A stretch of DNA of 64,000 nt. It comes from Cyclobacteriaceae bacterium. Its GTDB lineage: Bacteria > Bacteroidota > Bacteroidia > Cytophagales > Cyclobacteriaceae. A model generated the notes under the pieces. It ran no database searches. It was not told the DNA's origin and saw only the letters and a program-made list of their open reading frames with translations. Position 1 is the first letter of the stretch, and each line of letters starts with the position of its first letter. A program made the position numbers and the translations under genes. This document shows, piece by piece, positions 26,469 through 36,512 of the stretch. Where the stretch lies: contig JAEUUJ010000076.1 in assembly GCA_016786495.1 (NCBI GenBank), positions 16,083-80,082 on the forward strand, written 5' to 3'.

Positions 26469-27086
26469 GTGCAGCTTCAGTATTTCTTTGAGCTTTTCGG
26501 AACGTTCTTCTTTGCCATCTCAGGTGCGATGGCGATTCACGACCGTGACCACGACTGGTTCGGAGCTGGCTTCACCGGATTTCTCACGGCCATCGGAGGC
26601 GGAAGTCTGCGCGACATCACCCTCGGCAGCTATCCGCTGGTGTGGATTGGCGACATCAACTTTCTCTACGCCATCCTGGCCGGAATCCTGATTGCGCTGG
26701 TGTTTTTCTCCAAACTGGTTCGGCTGAAGCGAACATTTTTTCTCTTCGACACGCTCGGCATTGCCTTCTTCACCATCCTGGGTGTGGAGAAAGCGCTCAG
26801 TCTGGGTGTCCGTCCGGAGATCGCTGCGATCATGGGAATGTTCACTGCGGTGATGGGCGGAGTGATCCGCGACACGCTCGCGAACGAAACGCCTGTCATC
26901 TTCCGGAAAGAAATTTATGCCACTGCATGCCTCGCAGGGGCAGTTTTTTACCTCTTGCTCAACTTTCAGTTTGGTGTTGATCGCAACATTAACCTGGTTG
27001 TGTCGAGCTTGTTGATCATCATCATCCGTGTGCTTGCCGTGAAGTACAAACTCGCGTTACCCGGGTTTAAGAAACCTTCGCACTAA
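26469..27086 (+). CDS. TRIC-type (UPF0126) membrane channel protein
   Basis: About 205 residues from the GTG at 26469, which starts at VQLQYFFELFG, the normal N-terminus of this family. An earlier in-frame ATG at 26379 would add 30 residues that look random. There are about seven membrane segments in two repeats, with the glycine-rich GGGSLRDI and GGVIRDTL motifs at the end of the second helix of each repeat. Bacterial relatives of trimeric intracellular cation channels are thought to conduct potassium or glycine-related solutes; the substrate here is uncertain. It follows the PorP/SprF gene at a 125-base distance. Confidence 0.85.
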   Translation: MQLQYFFELFGTFFFAISGAMAIHDRDHDWFGAGFTGFLTAIGGGSLRDITLGSYPLVWIGDINFLYAILAGILIALVFFSKLVRLKRTFFLFDTLGIAFFTILGVEKALSLGVRPEIAAIMGMFTAVMGGVIRDTLANETPVIFRKEIYATACLAGAVFYLLLNFQFGVDRNINLVVSSLLIIIIRVLAVKYKLALPGFKKPSH

Positions 27087-27161
27087 CTTTCGTTAGCCGA
27101 GGCAACAAAAAATTTTTAAAATCTTAGCCTCAAACATTATCATTTCCCGAACTTTATCGTT

Positions 27162-27169
27162 TAATTTTG
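27162..27169 (+). promoter_or_regulatory. Candidate -7 element of the arginine operon
   Basis: TAATTTTG fits TAnnTTTG. It is about 310 bases upstream of the first structural gene and about 70 bases upstream of the arginine-rich leader reading frame, so transcription would cover the whole leader. A clear TTTG at -33 was not seen. Confidence 0.45.
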
Positions 27170-27239
27170 CATATTAAGTTAAACCAAACAGGAGACTGAA
27201 TGCCATTTATCTGACTTCACTTAACCACTAAGACAGAAA

Positions 27240-27368
27240 TTGAAAACTTCAATCACCACTACACGAACAGCCAAGGCTGTTAACCACTCCAAAAGAACAA
27301 ACCTGTTCTACCTTCACGCCTGCGAGGTGATTAGGCGCAACCGACCGACACGCTTCGCGCGGATCTGA
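27240..27368 (+). CDS. Candidate arginine-rich leader peptide of the arg operon
   Basis: A 42-codon frame from TTG at 27240 to TGA at 27366-27368. It contains seven Arg codons, five of them in the last eleven sense codons, reading RRNRPTRFARI, with a mixture of AGG, CGC, CGA and CGG. No other frame here looks coding, and there is no ATG alternative. A ribosome slowed at the Arg cluster when charged Arg-tRNA is scarce would sit about three to thirty bases before the first downstream hairpin. The position at the head of an arginine operon makes a leader-peptide role likely, but the start codon is non-ATG and I have no comparative proof. Confidence 0.5.
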   Translation: MKTSITTTRTAKAVNHSKRTNLFYLHACEVIRRNRPTRFARI

Positions 27369-27371
27369 TAC

Positions 27372-27443
27372 CAACGCCCAAGATCGTTGAATGAGACATA
27401 ACATCGGAGATGTTATGGCTTTTGTGCTTTAGCACTGTTTTTG
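27372..27443 (+). promoter_or_regulatory. Candidate attenuator hairpins of the arg operon
   Basis: Three possible stems follow the leader frame. The first pairs CAACG (27372-27376) with CGTTG (27385-27389), the second is CATAACATC-GGA-GATGTTATG (27397-27417), nine perfect pairs with a three-base loop and followed by GCTTTTG, and the third pairs GTGC with GCAC (27424-27435) before a TGTTTTT run. The second, or the third with its T-run, could be the terminator, and the first a competing structure near the leader stop codon. The first structural gene begins 34 bases later. Confidence 0.45.
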
Positions 27444-27476
27444 ATCATTCATTTTTGATTAATACCAGACATTACA

Positions 27477-28241
27477 TTGGATAATAATAAATTGATCGTC
27501 CGGCTGGCAACACCAGCCGACAAACACTATGCTGACACCATCACTACCGAGATGGAAGAATCAGCGAAAGCGCGCGGAACCGGCATCGCCAAGCGCTCAC
27601 CAGCCTACATCGAACAAAAAATGGAGGAAGGAAAGGCTGTTATTGCCACCACCCAGGAAGGCACATGGGTTGGGTTTTGCTACATCGAGGCGTGGGAGCA
27701 CGACAAGTATGTGGCTAACTCAGGCCTCATCGTGTCGCCTCAATTCCGCAAAACAGGAGTGGCTACGGAAATTAAACGCAAAATCTTCTCGCTGTCGCGT
27801 GAAAAATATCCGCATGCAAAAATATTCGGACTCACCACCGGTTTGGCCGTGATGAAGATCAACTCCGACCTCGGGTACGAGCCGGTGACGTATTCCGAAC
27901 TTACCACCGATGAAGAGTTCTGGAAGGGCTGCCGCAGTTGTGTGAACTACGAAATCCTGATGAGCAAAGACCGTAAGAACTGCATGTGTACAGCGATGCT
28001 GTTCGATCCGGTGGAGGTTGCGGAAAAGCAAAAGCAACTGGCACAGACGGTGGTTACACCCGAGGGCAAGCTTGAGCAGCAAACCGAAAGGCGCCAGTTC
28101 AAGGGCAATCTCAAGTTGTTCGAACGCTGGGTACGCTTCAAGCAGTTTGTATTGCTGCGCTCCTTCCGTAAAAAGGAGGGTGGTTCAGACGGTCCTTCCG
28201 AATCACGGAAGTCGCTTTTAAGCATGTTATTTTTCTGGTAA
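27477..28241 (+). CDS. GNAT acetyltransferase, probable N-acetylglutamate synthase role
   Basis: A 254-residue protein that starts at TTG (27477); there is no ATG in the short interval upstream. The GNAT fold is visible: VGFCYIEAW strand, NSGLIVSPQFRKTGVATEI with the acetyl-CoA loop RKTGVA (91-96), and IFGLTTGLAVM. A C-terminal extension has four close cysteines (152, 155, 169, 171), which might bind metal, then a basic helical tail. It heads the arginine operon, which otherwise lacks an enzyme for the first acylation of glutamate, so it may be the acetyl- or succinyl-glutamate synthase. That role is inferred from position. There are only ten bases between its stop and argG. Confidence 0.7.
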   Translation: MDNNKLIVRLATPADKHYADTITTEMEESAKARGTGIAKRSPAYIEQKMEEGKAVIATTQEGTWVGFCYIEAWEHDKYVANSGLIVSPQFRKTGVATEIKRKIFSLSREKYPHAKIFGLTTGLAVMKINSDLGYEPVTYSELTTDEEFWKGCRSCVNYEILMSKDRKNCMCTAMLFDPVEVAEKQKQLAQTVVTPEGKLEQQTERRQFKGNLKLFERWVRFKQFVLLRSFRKKEGGSDGPSESRKSLLSMLFFW

Positions 28242-28251
28242 TCTATAATTA

Positions 28252-29454
28252 ATGAAGAAGAAAGTTGTTTTGGCCTTTAGCGGGGGATTGGACACCTCTT
28301 ACTGTGTTAAGTACCTCAGCGAAGAAAAGGGCTATGAAGTTCATACCATCACCATCAACACGGGTGGCTTCGATGCAGCCGAAGTGAAGGCGATCGAAGA
28401 GCGCGCGAAAAACCTGGGCGTGGCTTCGCACATCACGGTTGATGAAACGAAGAATTACTACGACACCGTGATCCGTTTTTTGATCTACGGAAACGTATTG
28501 AAGAATAACACCTATCCGTTAAGCGTAAGTGCCGAACGGATGTCGCAGGCGTTGGCTACCGCAAACTATGCGAAAAAGCTCAAGGCTGATGCAGTAGCGC
28601 ACGGAAGCACCGGTGCCGGTAACGACCAGGTTCGGTTCGACATGATATTGAACATTCTCGTTCCGGGAATCGAGATCATAACGCCCATCCGCGACATGAA
28701 GCTGTCACGCGAACAGGAGATTGAGTACCTCAAATCGAAAGGGGTTGTATATGATTTCAGGAAGGCGATGTACTCTGTTAATAAAGGAATCTGGGGAACA
28801 TCAGTAGGAGGTAAGGAAACCCTGAAGTCGCTGGGAACGCTGCCGGAAGAAGCGTGGCCTACGCAGGTTACAAAAACCGGGAGCGAAACCGTAAAGCTCT
28901 CTTTCGACAAAGGCGAACTGAAAAAAGTAAATGATAAGGCTTTTAACCACCCGACTGAAGCAATTCAGTATTTACAGGCTATCGCAGGTGGGTATGGCGT
29001 TGGCCGCGACATTCACGTGGGCGACACCATTATCGGTATCAAGGGCCGCGTGGGATTTGAAGCCGCTGCACCGGTGGTAATCATCAAAGCACATCACGCA
29101 CTTGAAAAGCACGTGCTTACGAAGTGGCAGTTGAGCTGGAAAGATCAGCTGGCGCAGTTTTACGGCAACTGGCTGCACGAGGGCCAATACCTGGATCCGG
29201 TGATGCGGGACATTGAAGCATATCTTTCAAACTCGCAGCAGCAGGTAACGGGCGATGTTACCGTTGAACTCCATCCATACCGCTTCCACGTGGTGGGTAT
29301 CGAATCGAAGTATGATCTGATGTCATCGAAGTTCGGCAAGTATGGCGAAGAGAATCTCGGCTGGTCGGGCAACGATGTGAAAGGTTTTACAAAAATCTTT
29401 GGCAACCAGACTGCGATCTTCCATCAGGTAAAAACAGACGCAGATGGCAACTAA
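28252..29454 (+). CDS. argG: Argininosuccinate synthase
   Basis: A 400-residue enzyme that joins citrulline and aspartate using ATP, the penultimate step of arginine synthesis. The ATP-pyrophosphatase loop AFSGGLDTSYC is at the N-terminus. Later segments HGSTGAGNDQVRF and GRVGFEAAAPVVIIKAHH are typical of the family. Start ATG at 28252. The stop codon overlaps the argC start by eleven bases, so translation is likely coupled. In this operon it receives citrulline made by ArgE from an N-acyl precursor. Confidence 0.97.
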   Translation: MKKKVVLAFSGGLDTSYCVKYLSEEKGYEVHTITINTGGFDAAEVKAIEERAKNLGVASHITVDETKNYYDTVIRFLIYGNVLKNNTYPLSVSAERMSQALATANYAKKLKADAVAHGSTGAGNDQVRFDMILNILVPGIEIITPIRDMKLSREQEIEYLKSKGVVYDFRKAMYSVNKGIWGTSVGGKETLKSLGTLPEEAWPTQVTKTGSETVKLSFDKGELKKVNDKAFNHPTEAIQYLQAIAGGYGVGRDIHVGDTIIGIKGRVGFEAAAPVVIIKAHHALEKHVLTKWQLSWKDQLAQFYGNWLHEGQYLDPVMRDIEAYLSNSQQQVTGDVTVELHPYRFHVVGIESKYDLMSSKFGKYGEENLGWSGNDVKGFTKIFGNQTAIFHQVKTDADGN

Positions 29455-30418
29455 CATAACGGTCGGGATCGTTGGGGGAGCGGGATACACCGGAGGTGAA
29501 GCAATTCGCCTGCTCATCAATCATCCGAACGTTGACCTGAAATTCGTTCACAGTCGCAGCAATGCAGGTAATTTACTGTCGGATGTTCATGCTGACCTGA
29601 CGGGAGATACCGAACTGAAATTCACGGACGCGTTACAGTATGCTGACGTAGTGTTCCTTTGCCTTGGGCATGGTGAAAGCAAAAAGTTTTTGCAGGAGAA
29701 TATTCTGGATGACTCCGTAAAGGTTATTGACCTCAGTCAGGATTTTCGTCTGGGCGACTCGGCAGGCAACCGGAAGTTCGTGTACGGCTTGCCGGAATTG
29801 AATAAAGATTCAATAAAAAAAGCATCGAACATTGCCAACCCCGGCTGTTTTGCAACGGCAATTGAACTTGGATTGCTTCCCCTGGCCAAGCTTGGGTTGT
29901 TGAAAGAGGTTTACACCACGGGTATTACGGGCTCGACAGGCGCAGGTCAGAAACTACAGGATACCACACACTTTACCTGGCGCGCGAACAACATTTCGGC
30001 CTATAAAACACTCACGCATCAACATCTGAAAGAGATCACGCAATCGGTAAGACAATTGCAGCCTGCGTTTTCCGGTGCGATTAACTTTGTTCCGTGGCGC
30101 GGAGACTTTACGCGCGGGATTTTTGTGAGCTCTGTGATCACGACCGACAAAAGTCTTGATGAACTTGGTTCGATCTATCGGGATTTTTACAACGGTCATC
30201 CGTTTACCGTTGTTTCCGGCCAGACGCTTGATCTGAAACAGGTTGTGAATACCAATAAGTGTGCAATCAACCTCGAGAAAGAAGGCGACAAACTTGTGGT
30301 GCATTCCGCCATCGATAATCTTTTAAAAGGCGCGAGCGGACAGGCCGTGCAGAACATGAACATCATGTTTGGCCTGGAGGAAACTGCAGGGCTCAAGCTT
30401 AAGTCTGGTGTATTTTAA
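29444..30418 (+). CDS. argC: N-acetyl-gamma-glutamyl-phosphate reductase
   Basis: A 324-residue NADPH enzyme that reduces N-acylglutamyl phosphate to the semialdehyde. The dinucleotide loop GIVGGAGYTGGEAIRLL is near the N-terminus and the catalytic Cys sits in NPGCFATAIELGL (about Cys136). HHF-type elements TGSTGAGQK and FVPWRGDFTRGI follow. It overlaps argG by eleven bases and is followed by proC after nine bases. Confidence 0.97.
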   Translation: MATNITVGIVGGAGYTGGEAIRLLINHPNVDLKFVHSRSNAGNLLSDVHADLTGDTELKFTDALQYADVVFLCLGHGESKKFLQENILDDSVKVIDLSQDFRLGDSAGNRKFVYGLPELNKDSIKKASNIANPGCFATAIELGLLPLAKLGLLKEVYTTGITGSTGAGQKLQDTTHFTWRANNISAYKTLTHQHLKEITQSVRQLQPAFSGAINFVPWRGDFTRGIFVSSVITTDKSLDELGSIYRDFYNGHPFTVVSGQTLDLKQVVNTNKCAINLEKEGDKLVVHSAIDNLLKGASGQAVQNMNIMFGLEETAGLKLKSGVF

Positions 30419-30427
30419 TAATCCTTT

Positions 30428-31234
30428 ATGGCAACAAAAAAAATAGCCATTCTGGGTGGCGGTAATTTAGGAGTGGCAATTGCGAAAGGAATCGTAAACT
30501 CCGGTCAGGCACAAGCGTCAGACATCATTATCACGCGCAGAAACCTCTCTAAGATTGCTTCACTGAAGCGCGAAAAGTTTGTCTTGACTTCCGATAATGT
30601 CGCGGCTGTTAACGCATCGGCTGTGGTGATGCTGTGCGTACAACCGAAGCAGCTTGCAGGCTTGCTGGAAGAAGTTTCTGCCGCGTTGAGCGAAAAGAAA
30701 CATATTCTTGTTTCCACTATTACAGGGATTACCACGGAGGAAATATCCGGACACCTGAATAAACAAGTTCCGATTGTGCGGGCAATGCCGAACACGGCCA
30801 TTGCGATTGGCGCTTCCATGACATGCATCTGCTCAAAAGACACGTCTGACAAGCAACTGCGTGAAATCGAAAATCTTTTCAAGTCGCTCGGACAAACCTT
30901 GATTATTGAAGAACACCTCATGAAGGCTGCTACCGTGCTGGCGGCAAGCGGCATCGCTTTTTTCATGCGCTACCTCCGGGCAGCAACGCAGGGTGGAATC
31001 CAACTGGGCTTTGATGCGGAAGAGTCGCAGATGATTGCTGCGCAAACGGCAAAAGGGGCAGCTCTGTTGTTGGCCGCCAATCACTCCCATCCCGAACTCG
31101 AGATCGACAAGGTTACCACTCCGCAAGGGTGTACCATTGCCGGACTGAATGAGATGGAACATCAGGGGCTGAGCTCCGCACTTATTAAAGGCATCGTTGC
31201 CTCATTTGAAAAGATTAACAGCATTAAAAAGTAG
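30428..31234 (+). CDS. proC: Pyrroline-5-carboxylate reductase
   Basis: A 268-residue enzyme that makes proline from pyrroline-5-carboxylate with NAD(P)H. The Rossmann motif is GGGNLGVAIAKGI (about residues 9-21), with AMPNTAIAIGASMT later in the sequence and the C-terminal helical domain TTPQGCTIAGLNEME at the end. Its presence inside an arginine operon is a recurring Bacteroidota arrangement, and both pathways draw on glutamate semialdehydes. There is no apparent terminator or promoter around it. Confidence 0.96.
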   Translation: MATKKIAILGGGNLGVAIAKGIVNSGQAQASDIIITRRNLSKIASLKREKFVLTSDNVAAVNASAVVMLCVQPKQLAGLLEEVSAALSEKKHILVSTITGITTEEISGHLNKQVPIVRAMPNTAIAIGASMTCICSKDTSDKQLREIENLFKSLGQTLIIEEHLMKAATVLAASGIAFFMRYLRAATQGGIQLGFDAEESQMIAAQTAKGAALLLAANHSHPELEIDKVTTPQGCTIAGLNEMEHQGLSSALIKGIVASFEKINSIKK

Positions 31235-31243
31235 GTTAGGGAA

Positions 31244-32365
31244 ATGAAGTTATTTGACGTTTATCCTTTGTTCGACATCACACCCGTAAAAGCCGAAGGC
31301 TCATGGTTGTGGGACGACAAGGGGGAAAAGTATCTCGATTTATATGGAGGCCATGCGGTGATTTCGATTGGTCATTCGCATCCACACTATGTCAAAACGC
31401 TGGGCGACCAGTTGAGTAAGATTTCATTTTATTCCAACAGTGTTCAGAATCCGCAGCAGCAACAACTTGCCGAACGGCTCGGTAAAATTTCCGGTTACCC
31501 GGATTATCAATTGTTCTTATGTAACTCAGGGGCGGAAGCCAATGAGAATGCGCTCAAACTTGCTTCGTTTGTTACAGGCCGGAAAAAGATCATAGCATTT
31601 AAGAATGCATTTCATGGCCGCACTTCGGGTGCTGTTGCAGCGACTGATAATCCGAAGATTGTTGCACCGTTCAATGCCGGGCACGATATCGTGTTTGTTC
31701 CGCTGAACGATGAAACTGCGCTCACCGCAGCACTGGATAAAGAAGTGGCGGCTGTTATTATTGAAGGCATTCAGGGTGTTGGCGGAATTCAATTGCCGGA
31801 TGATTCTTTTCTCACCTTCCTGAAAAAGAAATGTGATGAGAATGGTTCGCTTTTAATTCTGGATGAAATTCAATCCGGGTACGGACGAAGTGGAAAATTT
31901 TTCTCACATCAGTTCTCGGGTGTGAAGCCGCAGATTATTACAACAGCCAAAGGAATGGGCAACGGGTTCCCGGTAGGGGGTGTACTGATTCATCCCGATA
32001 TTAAACCGTGGAGCGGAATGCTTGGAACAACCTTTGGGGGAAATTACTTATCGAGTGTGGCGAGCCTTGCCGTGCTCGATGTACTGGAGAAAGAAAATCT
32101 GATGGACAACGCAGCTAAACTGGGCGACTATGTGATGGGTGAGCTCAGGAAGATGCCGGTGTTGAACCGTGTTCGCGGCCGTGGCCTGATGATCGGCTTT
32201 GATTTGCCCGAAGATCGTAAGTCGGTGCGGTTGGATTTATTGAAGAAACATAAAATCTTCACAGGCGAAGCCAAGCCGAATGTGATCCGTCTGCTGCCCT
32301 CCCTTGCTGTAACGAAGGCTGAACTGGATATTTTTCTTACCGCATTGAAACAGGAATTACAATGA
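31244..32365 (+). CDS. argD: Acylornithine aminotransferase
   Basis: A 373-residue class III PLP-dependent aminotransferase. It converts N-acylglutamate semialdehyde to N-acylornithine with glutamate. NSGAEANENALKLA, AFHGRTSGA, LDEIQSGYGRSGKF and TTAKGMGNGFPVG are visible; the Lys in TTAKGMG (about Lys235) should hold PLP. The stop overlaps the argF' start by four bases (the stop-start motif reads ATGA), suggesting coupled translation. Confidence 0.96.
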   Translation: MKLFDVYPLFDITPVKAEGSWLWDDKGEKYLDLYGGHAVISIGHSHPHYVKTLGDQLSKISFYSNSVQNPQQQQLAERLGKISGYPDYQLFLCNSGAEANENALKLASFVTGRKKIIAFKNAFHGRTSGAVAATDNPKIVAPFNAGHDIVFVPLNDETALTAALDKEVAAVIIEGIQGVGGIQLPDDSFLTFLKKKCDENGSLLILDEIQSGYGRSGKFFSHQFSGVKPQIITTAKGMGNGFPVGGVLIHPDIKPWSGMLGTTFGGNYLSSVASLAVLDVLEKENLMDNAAKLGDYVMGELRKMPVLNRVRGRGLMIGFDLPEDRKSVRLDLLKKHKIFTGEAKPNVIRLLPSLAVTKAELDIFLTALKQELQ

Positions 32366-33312
32366 AGAATTTCTTATCTGTAGACGATATTTCGAATATC
32401 AACGAGCTGGTGCAGAAGGCGCTTGCGTTTAAAACCGATCCGCTGAGCGACAAAGGACAGGGCAGCGGCAAGCGCATCGGGTTGTTGTTTTTAAATCCGA
32501 GCATGCGCACACGCCTCAGTACCCAAATCGCGGCATCCAATCTCGGGATGGAAAGCATTGTGTTCAATGTAGGCCAGGATGGCTGGTCGCTGGAGTTTGA
32601 CGATGAGGCGATCATGAGCGGTACCACCGTAGAACACGTGAAAGAAGCTGCGCCTATTCTCGGGAAGTACTTTGATGTGCTGGGGGTGAGAACATTTCCT
32701 GGATTAAAAGACCGGGAGGCTGATTACAGCGAGTTTTTTATCAAACAATTCGTGAAGTATTCCGGCATCCCGATCATAAGCCTTGAGAGTGCAACACTTC
32801 ATCCGCTTCAAAGTCTGACGGACATTATCACAATCACAGAAACCTTTCAGGAAAAGCGCAGGCCGAAAATTGTGTTAACCTGGGCTCCGCACGTAAAAGC
32901 ACTTCCGCAATGTGTGGCCAACAGTTTTGCGCAGTGGGTAAATGCATGGGGCGAGGCTGATTTTGTGATCACGCATCCGGAAGGATATGAGCTGGACAAG
33001 AAATTTACCGGTAATGCAGCGATTTCGTACGATCAGGACTATGCGTTGAAAGAAGCTGATTTCGTGTATGTGAAAAACTGGAGTTCGTATACAAATTATG
33101 GTACGGTACTTAGTACGGATACGCGTTGGATGCTGAACAACGAAAAACTGGCAACTACGAATAATGCGAAAGTAATGCACTGTTTACCGGTGCGGAGAAA
33201 TGTGGAGTTGAGTGGTGAGATTCTGGACGGTGCGAATAGTATTGTTACACAACAGGCGGGCAATCGCGTTTGGGCTGCGCAGGCTGTGTTATCAGAGATA
33301 CTGAACGGATAA
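32362..33312 (+). CDS. argF': N-acylornithine carbamoyltransferase (Bacteroidota type)
   Basis: A 316-residue transcarbamylase that carbamoylates N-acylornithine rather than ornithine. NPSMRTRLST (45-54) binds carbamoyl phosphate, HPLQSLTDIITI and VMHCLPVRRN are typical. The residue that fixes the acyl group precedes EH in the sequence: Pro90 in the Bacteroides succinyl enzyme and Glu92 in the Xanthomonas acetyl enzyme, as I recall them. Here the equivalent is Val90 (TTVEHV), which matches neither, so the substrate acyl group is uncertain. It is coupled to argD by four bases of overlap. Confidence 0.93.
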   Translation: MKNFLSVDDISNINELVQKALAFKTDPLSDKGQGSGKRIGLLFLNPSMRTRLSTQIAASNLGMESIVFNVGQDGWSLEFDDEAIMSGTTVEHVKEAAPILGKYFDVLGVRTFPGLKDREADYSEFFIKQFVKYSGIPIISLESATLHPLQSLTDIITITETFQEKRRPKIVLTWAPHVKALPQCVANSFAQWVNAWGEADFVITHPEGYELDKKFTGNAAISYDQDYALKEADFVYVKNWSSYTNYGTVLSTDTRWMLNNEKLATTNNAKVMHCLPVRRNVELSGEILDGANSIVTQQAGNRVWAAQAVLSEILNG

Positions 33313-33316
33313 GTGT

Positions 33317-34105
33317 ATGAATAAACTGTTCATCATCAAGATCGGAGGCAATGTACTGGATGACCCGCGTCAGCTGGATCTGTTTCTGAAAGACTTTGCG
33401 TCTATCAAGGAGCCGCGTATTCTGATTCATGGCGGAGGAAAGATCGCCACCAAGATTGGCAATCAGCTTGGCATTGAGTCGAACTATATCAACGGCCGCA
33501 GAATAACCGATGCGGAAACGCTTGACCTCGTGACCATGGTGTATGGAGGTTTGGTGAACAAGCAGTTGGTGGCTACGCTTCAACACCTGGGATGCAATGC
33601 GATCGGGGTGACGGGTGCAGATGCGAACCTCATTACTGCAACGAAGCGCCCGGTGAAAGACATTGATTACGGATTTGTAGGCGATATCAAACCCTCCGGT
33701 GTCAATACCGCACTTCTGTATGAGTTGCTGAAGCAAAATACGGTTCCGGTTTTTGCACCGCTCACCCATGCGAACGGAAGCATGCTGAATACAAATGCCG
33801 ATACGATTGCCTCGGTTTTGGCGGTTGCGCTCAGCAAACATTTTGACGTGCGCCTGATTTTCTGCTTTGAAAAGAAGGGTGTTCTTCGCAATGTGAACGA
33901 TAATCAGTCGGTAATCACACACCTGCCAAAAAAATTATACGATGAATACGTTGAACAGGGTATCTTCGCAGATGGTATTTTGCCAAAACTGGAAAATGCC
34001 TACGCAGCGATTGAGGCGGGAGTGAAGGAAGTACTCATTGGCGAGTCTACCGATCTCATCAAAAATACCGGTCAGGAAACCGATGGAACGCTGATCACGA
34101 AATAA
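33317..34105 (+). CDS. argB: Acetylglutamate kinase
   Basis: A 262-residue amino acid kinase that phosphorylates N-acylglutamate. The N-terminal KIGGNVLDD binds the substrate phosphate, HGGGKIATKIGNQ follows, and NTNADTIASVLA and the C-terminal helix complete the fold. It is slightly short and lacks the N-terminal extension associated with arginine inhibition, though that alone does not prove it is feedback-insensitive. It starts four bases after argF'. Confidence 0.95.
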   Translation: MNKLFIIKIGGNVLDDPRQLDLFLKDFASIKEPRILIHGGGKIATKIGNQLGIESNYINGRRITDAETLDLVTMVYGGLVNKQLVATLQHLGCNAIGVTGADANLITATKRPVKDIDYGFVGDIKPSGVNTALLYELLKQNTVPVFAPLTHANGSMLNTNADTIASVLAVALSKHFDVRLIFCFEKKGVLRNVNDNQSVITHLPKKLYDEYVEQGIFADGILPKLENAYAAIEAGVKEVLIGESTDLIKNTGQETDGTLITK

Positions 34106-34108
34106 CCC

Positions 34109-35173
34109 ATGACGGACACCATCAAGACACTTAAACAGGAAGCTATTGAGTTACTTCAACAGCTGATCAGCATTCCGTCATTCAGTCGCGAAGAAGATAA
34201 AACGGCCAGCCTCATTGCCGATTTTCTTTCTGCAAAAGGCATCCCGGTAAACCGGTCGGGCAACAACGTTTGGGCCGTTAACAAACACTTTGACAACAAC
34301 AAACCTTCGCTGTTACTCAATTCCCATCACGACACCGTTAAGCCCAATCCCGGATACACCCGCGATCCATTCAACGCTCAGATCATTGACGGAAAATTGT
34401 ATGGCCTCGGAAGCAACGATGCAGGCGGGCCGCTGGTAGCGCTGCTGGCGGTATTTGTTTATTTCTATGACGTGCCCGGATTGCCGTACAACATCGTGAT
34501 GGCGGCTACGGCCGAAGAGGAGGTATCCGGAACTGGCGGTATTGAAAGTATCTGGGCGAGTCTGCCCACAATCAATTGTGCGGTGGTGGGCGAGCCTACC
34601 TTGATGGACGTGGCGATTGCTGAAAAAGGTCTAATGGTGCTCGATTGTGTGGCGAAAGGGAAGGCAGGGCACGCTGCGCGTGAAGAAGGTGTGAATGCGA
34701 TCTATCAGGCATTTGATGATATTGACTGGTTCCGCACGTATGAGTTCCAAAAGATCTCGCAGACGCTGGGAAAAATTAAAATGTCGGTAACGGTGATTAA
34801 TGCCGGGCAGGCTCACAACCAGGTTCCGGCCGAGTGCAGGTTCACAGTAGATATTCGGGTGACCGATGCCTACACGCTTGAGGAGGTGCTGGAAGTAGTC
34901 AGGCGCAATGTGATTTGTGAAGTAACACCACGTTCGCTTCGGTTGCGTCCGTCAGGAATTGATAAAAAACATCCCCTGATGAACGCGGTTGGCCTGCTGA
35001 AAGTAAAACAATATGGTTCGCCGACAACGTCCGATCAGGCGCTTATTCCGGCTCCGTCTATCAAGATGGGACCGGGCGACTCAGCACGTTCGCACAGTGC
35101 GGATGAGTTTATTTATGTCGATGAAATCAGAAAAGGCATAGATTTGTACATTCAACTGATCCGAAATCTATAA
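34109..35173 (+). CDS. argE: M20-family N-acyl-citrulline/ornithine deacylase
   Basis: A 354-residue metallopeptidase-type enzyme. Metal ligands are seen in LLNSHHDTVKPN, GSNDAGGPLVAL and the EE of ATAEEEVSGTGG. In this operon the acylated intermediate reaching it should be N-acylcitrulline, so it removes the acyl group before ArgG works; this is an inference from the carbamoyltransferase type. The C-terminal SARSHSADEFIYVDE has the final metal His. It begins three bases after argB. Confidence 0.92.
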   Translation: MTDTIKTLKQEAIELLQQLISIPSFSREEDKTASLIADFLSAKGIPVNRSGNNVWAVNKHFDNNKPSLLLNSHHDTVKPNPGYTRDPFNAQIIDGKLYGLGSNDAGGPLVALLAVFVYFYDVPGLPYNIVMAATAEEEVSGTGGIESIWASLPTINCAVVGEPTLMDVAIAEKGLMVLDCVAKGKAGHAAREEGVNAIYQAFDDIDWFRTYEFQKISQTLGKIKMSVTVINAGQAHNQVPAECRFTVDIRVTDAYTLEEVLEVVRRNVICEVTPRSLRLRPSGIDKKHPLMNAVGLLKVKQYGSPTTSDQALIPAPSIKMGPGDSARSHSADEFIYVDEIRKGIDLYIQLIRNL

Positions 35174-35180
35174 ACCGACT

Positions 35181-36512
35181 ATGAAACTCTGGCAAAAGGA
35201 TAAAGCTTCGCTGAAAGAAGTTGAACGATTTACGGTCGGCCAGGATCAGGTGATGGATATGTACCTCGCAAAGCTCGACGTGCTGGGATCGCTTGCGCAT
35301 ATCCGGATGCTGCAATCAATCGGTTTGCTTACGGAAGGAGAATTGAAATCACTTTCAGCAGAACTGAAAGACATCTACGCGCGGATCGAATCGGGTGAAT
35401 TTAAGGTTGAGTCTGGAGTAGAAGATATTCATTCCCAGGTTGAGCTTGAGCTGACGAAAAAACTTGGCGAAACGGGTAAGAAAATTCATAGTGGCCGTTC
35501 GCGAAACGATCAGGTATTGGTGGATATCAAATTGTATCTCCGCTATGAAATCGCTCAGGTTGTTGAAACCGTAAAACCTCTCTTTGCTCTTTTGCTTGAG
35601 CAAAGCGAAAAATACAAAGGTCAACTGCTTCCAGGCTACACGCATTTTCAACTCGCGATGCCCTCTTCGTTTGGATTGTGGTTTGGGGCGTACGCGGAGA
35701 GCCTGGTAGACGACCTCATCACACTCGAAGCTGCTTACCGGGTGGTAAACAAAAACCCGTTGGGTTCTGCTGCGGGTTACGGTTCCTCGTTTCCGTTGAA
35801 TCGTACCTTGACTACTAATCTTTTGGGGTTTGATGATTTGAACTACAACGTAGTGTACGCGCAGATGGGCCGGGGCAAAACGGAGCGGATTGTTGCCAGC
35901 GCATTGTCCAACATTGCCGCAACGATTGGTAAACTGGCGATGGATGCTGTACTGTTCATGAATCAAAACTTCGGGTTTATCAGCTTCCCGGATGAGCTGA
36001 CAACAGGCTCTAGCATCATGCCGCATAAAAAAAACCCCGATGTATTTGAACTGATCAGGGCGCGAGCCAGTCAGTTGATGGCCTTACCGAACGACATTGC
36101 GCTGCTGACCAACAATCTGCCGTCAGGGTACCACCGCGACATGCAGTTGCTGAAAGAGAAGCTTTTTCCGGCCATCCAGGATTTGAAAGATTGTTTGAAC
36201 ATGATGCACCTCATGCTGGCTAATGTGAAGGTAAAGGAGAATATTCTGAGCGATGATCAGTATAAATTTCTGTTCAGCGTGGAGGAAGTGAACAAATTGG
36301 TTTTATCCGGGATGCCGTTCCGCGATGCTTATAAGAAAATCGGGATAGACATTGAGCAGGGTAATTACAATCCTCAGAAAGCAGTAAACCACACCCACGA
36401 AGGAAGTATCGGAAATCTGAACAACGATCAGCTAGAGCGAATGATGAATGATGCGATCAATAAGTTTGACTTCGGAAAGGTCGATGCCGCCATTCAACAA
36501 TTGCTTAAGTAA
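35181..36512 (+). CDS. argH: Argininosuccinate lyase
   Basis: A 443-residue fumarase/aspartase superfamily enzyme that splits argininosuccinate into arginine and fumarate, the last step of the pathway. The superfamily signature GSSIMPHKKNPD (about residues 273-284) includes the catalytic Ser. Other segments are HSGRSRNDQV and PGYTHFQLAMP. It is the last gene of the operon and its stop codon abuts the end of the convergent DUF2721 gene, with no terminator between them that I can see. Confidence 0.97.
   Translation: MKLWQKDKASLKEVERFTVGQDQVMDMYLAKLDVLGSLAHIRMLQSIGLLTEGELKSLSAELKDIYARIESGEFKVESGVEDIHSQVELELTKKLGETGKKIHSGRSRNDQVLVDIKLYLRYEIAQVVETVKPLFALLLEQSEKYKGQLLPGYTHFQLAMPSSFGLWFGAYAESLVDDLITLEAAYRVVNKNPLGSAAGYGSSFPLNRTLTTNLLGFDDLNYNVVYAQMGRGKTERIVASALSNIAATIGKLAMDAVLFMNQNFGFISFPDELTTGSSIMPHKKNPDVFELIRARASQLMALPNDIALLTNNLPSGYHRDMQLLKEKLFPAIQDLKDCLNMMHLMLANVKVKENILSDDQYKFLFSVEEVNKLVLSGMPFRDAYKKIGIDIEQGNYNPQKAVNHTHEGSIGNLNNDQLERMMNDAINKFDFGKVDAAIQQLLK

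Follow-up and report, generated by a model that had tools for sequence, protein, structure and literature searches.

We propose that the arginine (arg) operon of this Cyclobacteriaceae bacterium is gated by a ribosome-mediated arginine sensor acting in cis, a short leader open reading frame (ORF) with clustered arginine codons; from the comparison of sequences, we put the probability of this reading at roughly 0.82. The elements concerned, numbered along the window (the whole stretch of 64,000 nucleotides that was analysed), are the following:

27162..27169, + strand: promoter-like -7 element TAATTTTG, also present in relatives
27200..27214, + strand: four-codon mini-ORF ATG CCA TTT ATC TGA, 25 nt before the leader start, kept in the clade
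27240..27368, + strand: arginine leader ORF of 42 codons, opened by TTG and closed by TGA, from sequence and conservation in relatives
27318..27336, + strand: hairpin GCCTG..TAGGC inside the arginine block, paired in 96% of cells (15 type A1 sequences)
27333..27362, + strand: arginine codon block AGG, CGC, CGA, CGC, CGG, with synonymous changes in relatives
27372..27389, + strand: five-pair hairpin just past the stop codon, from the minimum free energy (MFE) fold
27397..27417, + strand: nine-pair hairpin, terminator-like with a weak U-tail, from fold and covariation
27424..27442, + strand: four-pair hairpin GTGC TTTA GCAC (27424-27435) followed by TGTTTTT, T-run at 27438-27442, 93.2% of cells paired
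27477..28241, + strand: GNAT acetyltransferase heading the arg operon, with a TTG start
28252..36512, + strand: argG, argC, proC, argD-like, N-acetylornithine-carbamoyltransferase-like, argB, argE-like and argH, in this order, from profile search

The earlier note on this DNA had described a 42-codon frame with five arginine codons among its last eleven, and our reading of the sequence confirmed it. Forty-two sense codons run from the TTG at 27240 to the TGA at 27366-27368, and the arginine codons start at 27333, 27336, 27342, 27351 and 27360. Taken at a single locus, this density is modest evidence, since suitably placed ORFs with at least five arginine codons among their last 12 occurred in 14 of 850 pieces of the window (260 nt, both strands) and, when the relatives' leaders were dinucleotide-shuffled, in 0.2% of the shuffles. 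It is the conservation in relatives that settles the reality of the arginine leader ORF.

We refer as type A to 31 aligned loci chosen by the resemblance of their leader ORF, a set that includes near-duplicates (e.g. L011/L035, L013/L042 and L014/L041); the closest titled contigs carry the label Cyclobacteriaceae, and one that of Chryseosolibacter histidini. All 31 leaders start with TTG(A/G)AAA and stop with TGA, and their lengths range from 37 to 44 codons, mostly 42 in the subgroup nearest the window. On inspection by eye, we dismissed a GTG at 27331 as the start codon, since it is lost in several type A loci while the TTG is kept in 31/31. In the arginine block, 42.5% of the codon differences among 14 type A1 sequences were synonymous, compared with 10% and 20% in the other frames. 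Over the first 26 codons of the same sequences the share was 18.2%, compared with 17.6% and 13.5%, which gives no clear coding signature; this first part of the ORF is therefore conserved in length rather than in sequence. The C-terminal peptide, approximately TRRPRPxRFxRI, is strongly conserved within type A1. Furthermore, the arginine codons of the type A leaders are biased to AGG and CGA (84/145, one wrongly picked ORF included), as compared with 70 of 464 arginine codons when the GNAT gene and part of argG are counted in 18 type A loci. A short leader ORF in front of its cognate operon is conserved, with codons for the end product clustered near its end, two of the marks of a ribosome-mediated attenuator. 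The proposal of the earlier note to look among relatives' leaders for a broken frame or lost arginine codons was thus followed and the reading survived, as both are kept where the leader is. A leader ORF resembling type A was also seen in a genome of another family (L116, f24), outside the 31 loci and without the ATG mini-ORF.

On a wider scale, we collected upstream pieces from 30 family loci (the window's own included), 80 titled contigs and 25 loci of a phylum sample (296 genomes, 125 with the GNAT gene). To these were added 120 upstream stretches (66 from the phylum sample and 54 from the family) covering a subset of the genomes with a GNAT match. Of the resulting 255 pieces, 254 were long enough for scoring, and dropping 26 redundant ones left 228 non-redundant loci. 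An ORF ending 40-165 nt before the gene and carrying at least four arginine codons among its last 12 was found in 112 of these (49.1%), against 2.0% of dinucleotide shuffles (50 per leader). Arginine was the sole enriched residue of the 20 in the last 12 codons of upstream ORFs across the 228 loci. Its abundance is common to the lineages and the peptide sequence is not.

Extending the search to ORFs 30-260 nt before the gene raises the background, and the following counts come without a shuffle control. At least four arginine codons were found in f1 (56/87), f23 (13/13), f8 (4/5), f4 (4/7), f5 (4/9), f7 (8/20), f24 (2/7), f29 (1/2), f39 (1/1), f47 (1/2) and the titled contigs (41/79), and in 0/22 loci of f2, f3, f6, f11, f22, f25, f27, f37, f41 and f44. 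A chance reading of coding sequence seems to account for some of the single matches in small families. The loci of f2 (2), f3 (2), f6 (4), f22 (1), f25 (1) and f27 (2) showed no ORF with three or more arginine codons, and such an ORF is present in only 10 of the 20 f7 loci. Within f7, three loci (L163, L189 and L193) have two arginine-rich short ORFs in tandem, about 70 and 215 nt before the GNAT gene, possibly a double leader. Six others, from genus g92 (L162, L166, L169, L181, L187 and L188), share a recurrent short ORF about 211-236 nt before the GNAT gene that ends near TSPEVRML and has few arginine codons.

The association with arginine genes extends to the relatives: of 134 loci scored, 131 are followed by a homologue of a window arg gene, 115 of these with an ORF of at least three arginine codons and 16 without. 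In the window itself, argG, argC, proC, argB and argH exceed their profile cut-offs, and the argD-like, carbamoyltransferase-like and argE-like genes fall below them. The GNAT protein has a single NCBIfam match, far below cut-off (21.1 of 154 bits). Since the carbamoyltransferase (32362-33312) is nearest to the N-acetylornithine type (283.8 bits, cut-off 288), the arginine pathway may run through acetylated intermediates.

A profile search for the arginine repressor ArgR (PF01316) gave no match in the source genome (G000). None of 60 family genomes exceeded the cut-off, with one match below it (G024), compared with eight of 14 control genomes. Among the 296 genomes of the phylum sample, PF01316 matched in 110 and GNAT in 125, and only four carried both, two of them through weak or repetitive matches. 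We judged the PF01316 matches in G024 (below cut-off), G177 (five identical short ones) and G199 (26.9 bits) not to be real ArgR. The two clear carriers of both genes, in family f11 (L196 and L199), have a complete-looking argR immediately before the GNAT gene, in the place of the leader; the f11 loci show no ORF with at least four arginine codons, and their pieces end before the gene that follows GNAT. With so few genomes carrying both, and with the f11 argR standing where no arginine ORF is seen, leader and ArgR tend not to occur together. This is a pattern in the sequences and not proof, as diverged GNAT genes in genomes with ArgR may be missed.

Upstream of the leader ORF, TAATTTTG at 27162..27169 fits the Bacteroidota-type -7 consensus, TAnnTTTG, and the 30/30 type A loci scored have a TAnnTTT[GA] element at a distance of 12-37 nt from the mini-ORF that follows it. 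The mini-ORF itself, an ATG with three sense codons and a stop, is present in 31/31 type A loci (30 by script and L005 by eye). In the 30 scripted loci it lies 17-29 nt before the leader TTG and ends with TAA (19), TGA (8) or TAG (3); the stop in L005 is TAA. Codons 2 and 4 are the most variable. Since the length is constant while all three stop codons occur, we argue that the mini-ORF is translated, and it probably loads ribosomes that reinitiate at the weak TTG 25 nt downstream. Outside the clade, the pattern precedes a TTG in two of 23 loci, once overlapping the promoter-like element, a rough contrast in which some rows are anchored on a TTG other than the leader start.

The RNA of the leader is also structured. 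Its fold beats 200/200 dinucleotide shuffles (z -3.9), and the whole type A1 structure (22 pairs in four helices) exceeds 500/500 shuffles in all five measures. The nine-pair hairpin, compared among 15 type A1 sequences, has both sides changed at 9/9 pairs, with 91.9% of cells paired; the GCCTG..TAGGC hairpin is mostly invariant, and no pair has changes on both sides. The hairpins that the earlier note had placed within three bases of the end of the frame were recovered: in the predicted fold, the five-pair hairpin at 27372-27389 follows three unpaired bases, and the nine-pair stem and the T-run lie at 27397-27417 and 27438-27442. Small hairpins were seen by eye at the same post-stop position in other type A loci. 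Scanned under strict filters, the 148 family genomes gave 18 matches to a type A1 covariance model, at most one per genome and each immediately before the GNAT gene; 13 are loci on which the model was trained, and the other five belong to type A2.

We searched for conserved helices of at least five pairs present in 80% of sequences. In type A1 this gave the nine-pair hairpin, GCCTG/CAGGC and one five-pair helix of GTTCT with AGGAC, which would compete with the nine-pair hairpin; it neither covaries nor, as judged by eye, forms in the window. No covarying antiterminator competing with the nine-pair hairpin was found by this search in type A1, and it returned no helix in the A2 and B sets. In the CF set it gave a stem at the stop codon, paired in 33/33 sequences and obtained without motif preselection. 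Likewise, the stop-codon stem of Chitinophaga is 92.7% paired, with two covarying pairs in 17 sequences (of 18 references, L056 being omitted as a near-duplicate), two of the five measures being matched by many shuffles. Other Chitinophagaceae-like loci have the stop stem 100% paired with one strongly compensatory pair in 24 sequences, and their inner helix adds two more compensatory pairs, again with two of five measures matched by many shuffles; seven of the 31 loci were omitted there (L080, L086, L093, L094, L102, L107 and L110) as near-duplicates, L110 for a misplaced match. Both groups were selected by a motif in the 5' arm of the stem, so that independent evidence comes from the 3' arm alone. 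A Chitinophaga helix set of 20, in which two type A loci (L046 and L047) were wrongly included, gave seven helices, among them a nine-pair helix that competes with the stop stem and does not covary.

Another hairpin, its loop near CCTA(C/T)G, is found repeatedly in the wider family (48 of 255 loci by a simple pattern), and five more of the 255 fit a flavobacterial pattern, both counts coming without a shuffle control. Nine f7 loci (L163, L168, L177, L186, L189, L190, L191, L193 and L195) have a recurrent hairpin about 45-100 nt before the GNAT gene, with AGGTG(A/T)GTCC in the loop region. Folds computed with a ribosome masking the arginine stall (mostly the second arginine codon) or the stop gave no single consistent switch among the rows listed. 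No T-box or other Rfam leader was found, with zero Rfam matches in the whole window at gathering scores, and zero at E up to 1 in 27080-27500 and in 20 diverse loci.

The same genome offers two leaders for comparison:

L257 (G000:C88, reverse), bases ~403-535: his leader peptide MRTTTNIHLHHHHVLHTMRGRFMF, GC-rich hairpin and T6, before hisG
L258 (G000:C12), bases ~296-465: branched-chain (ilv) leader peptide MLNKSTLTERLLTLTTGIGSTVLSVIIILLDKPGAIV and strong terminator, ahead of an ilvE-like gene and ilvD

Both read as textbook-like leader peptides with terminators, of -21.8 kcal/mol (his) and -20.5 kcal/mol (ilv). The best terminator-like candidate of the arg leader in the window has -7.8 kcal/mol. 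Its nine-pair stem is AT-rich and its U-tail weak; the stretch 27397-27417 is one of two terminator-like matches in a 701-base region where 0.8 would be expected. Across the 228 leaders, terminator-like hairpins of -8 kcal/mol or lower occur in 8.3%, against 0.7% of shuffles that move two-base blocks, a cruder control. Eight of the 27 type A loci listed have no terminator candidate, the window and some other type A loci have weak ones, most other lineages show no clear one, and many of the lineages have no clear U-tract.

It is very improbable that the frame arose by chance or encodes a small protein of its own, with the leader under another factor: the density of arginine codons at this one locus is not rare enough to speak against such a reading, but the arginine-specific enrichment across the sample and the conserved frame do. 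We also consider improbable, if less so, an arginine-dependent arrest by the nascent peptide, instead of stalling for lack of charged tRNA. Fungal arginine attenuator peptides work by such an arrest, and the conserved C-terminal peptide of type A1 would suit it; however, the lineages share arginine content and not a peptide, AGG and CGA codons are preferred, and the first 26 codons drift. Ribosome-mediated arginine sensing is, on these sequence comparisons, well supported.

How the sensor would act on transcription is where the alternatives weigh most. In classical transcription attenuation, a stalled ribosome would favour an antiterminator over a terminator formed by the nine-pair and/or the GTGC hairpin with the T-run. 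This is a narrower form of the arginine-sensor reading, with odds that overlap, and we regard it as a serious possibility somewhat short of even odds. The terminator-like match, the covariation at all nine pairs, the genome's own his and ilv leaders, which are of this type, and the excess of terminator-like hairpins over shuffles speak for it, whereas the weak, AT-rich stem with its poor U-tail, the lineages lacking a clear U-tract and the want of a convincing competitor (the sole competing conserved helix in A1 has five pairs, does not covary and appears by eye absent in the window) speak against it. Of the ribosome-mediated attenuation that the earlier note proposed as possible, the arginine leader peptide before the arg operon, its frame and arginine codons kept in relatives, stands, and the classical mechanism is not established. 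Alternatively, the position of the ribosome might gate Rho, an RNase or a start site, by analogy with orf34/speF of Salmonella (PMC6386406), a precedent that together with the rarity of strong terminators speaks for such control, which we rate only slightly below classical attenuation. Of the 112 leaders with four or more arginine codons, 100 have an excess of C over G in the RNA that follows the stop, a loose criterion applied without a control set; such a bias would be compatible with Rho but is no proof of it. The conserved hairpins, on the other hand, suggest a structural role, and the stretch before the GNAT start appears by eye AT-rich and open, both of which count against this alternative. 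Since the arg leaders are weak in terminators and the excess of C proves nothing for Rho, we favour premature termination as the most likely output, intrinsic or of another kind.

Considering all the above results, a ribosome stalled for lack of arginine most likely switches the arg genes on. The mini-ORF would probably load ribosomes for reinitiation at the leader TTG, and translation of the 42-codon ORF is supported by the conserved frame and codons. At low levels of charged tRNA-Arg, the ribosome would stall within the arginine block, at a distance of two to eleven codons from the stop; with arginine present, it would reach the UGA and cover the RNA just beyond. These two positions would allow different folding of the post-stop RNA. 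In two lineages the conserved stop-codon stem could form only if the ribosome stalls upstream, the stem being conserved and the switch our inference. A stall would let RNA polymerase continue into the operon. Completed translation would lead to premature loss of the transcript, most likely by termination in the leader, the least certain step; in this genus, termination could occur at the two weak sites of hairpin and U-rich tract in 27397-27443, with or without Rho.

Consistent with the earlier note, which was not aware of one, we found no described arginine-operon leader peptide in Bacteroidota in the open-access literature, covered mostly at the level of titles and abstracts; a comparative survey of attenuation from 2010 (PubMed 20198868) may contain related predictions. 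Classical leader-peptide attenuators of amino-acid operons are known for his, trp, leu and ilv. Like these and the genome's own his and ilv leaders, the arg leader has a short ORF with codons for the end product, then a hairpin region and the cognate operon; unlike them, it would sense arginine, has no strong intrinsic terminator and starts with TTG after a four-codon mini-ORF.

Several known systems come close. Arginine codons in the leader ORF of Salmonella orf34-speF sense arginine by ribosome pausing, with outputs that include Rho-dependent termination and RNase G decay (PMC6386406); that leader controls an ornithine decarboxylase in another phylum, whereas a GNAT-arg operon with no ornithine decarboxylase gene lies downstream here. 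The Pseudomonas carA leader peptide also precedes an arginine-pathway gene and attenuation has been proposed, but it is reportedly tied to pyrimidines and concerns another gene and phylum (PMC4997734). Actinobacterial cys and leuA leaders likewise have no clear terminator, Rho being suggested for cys, but they serve other amino acids, and no conserved RNA structures were reported upstream of arginine operons in Actinobacteria (PMC1262725). Within the same phylum, Flavobacterium psychrophilum gives clues for leader-peptide attenuation before amino-acid operons, and the 5' elements named in the main-text section include pheA and hisG, not arg (PMC9723704). Bacteroidota ribosomes, according to another source, do not use Shine-Dalgarno pairing (PMC9976891).

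Altogether, we tentatively suggest that a Bacteroidota-wide family of arginine leaders replaces ArgR and works without a canonical terminator, and that one Cyclobacteriaceae clade has made of it a two-ORF device in which the conserved four-codon mini-ORF feeds the TTG sensor by reinitiation. The finding raises the questions of how a leader functions without a strong terminator in bacteria that do not use Shine-Dalgarno pairing, and what task the four-codon ORF ahead of it performs. If the reading is true, a ribosome-mediated attenuator of the arg operon would be conserved across much of a phylum, apparently in place of ArgR, and would explain the repressor-free control of arginine synthesis in many Bacteroidota.
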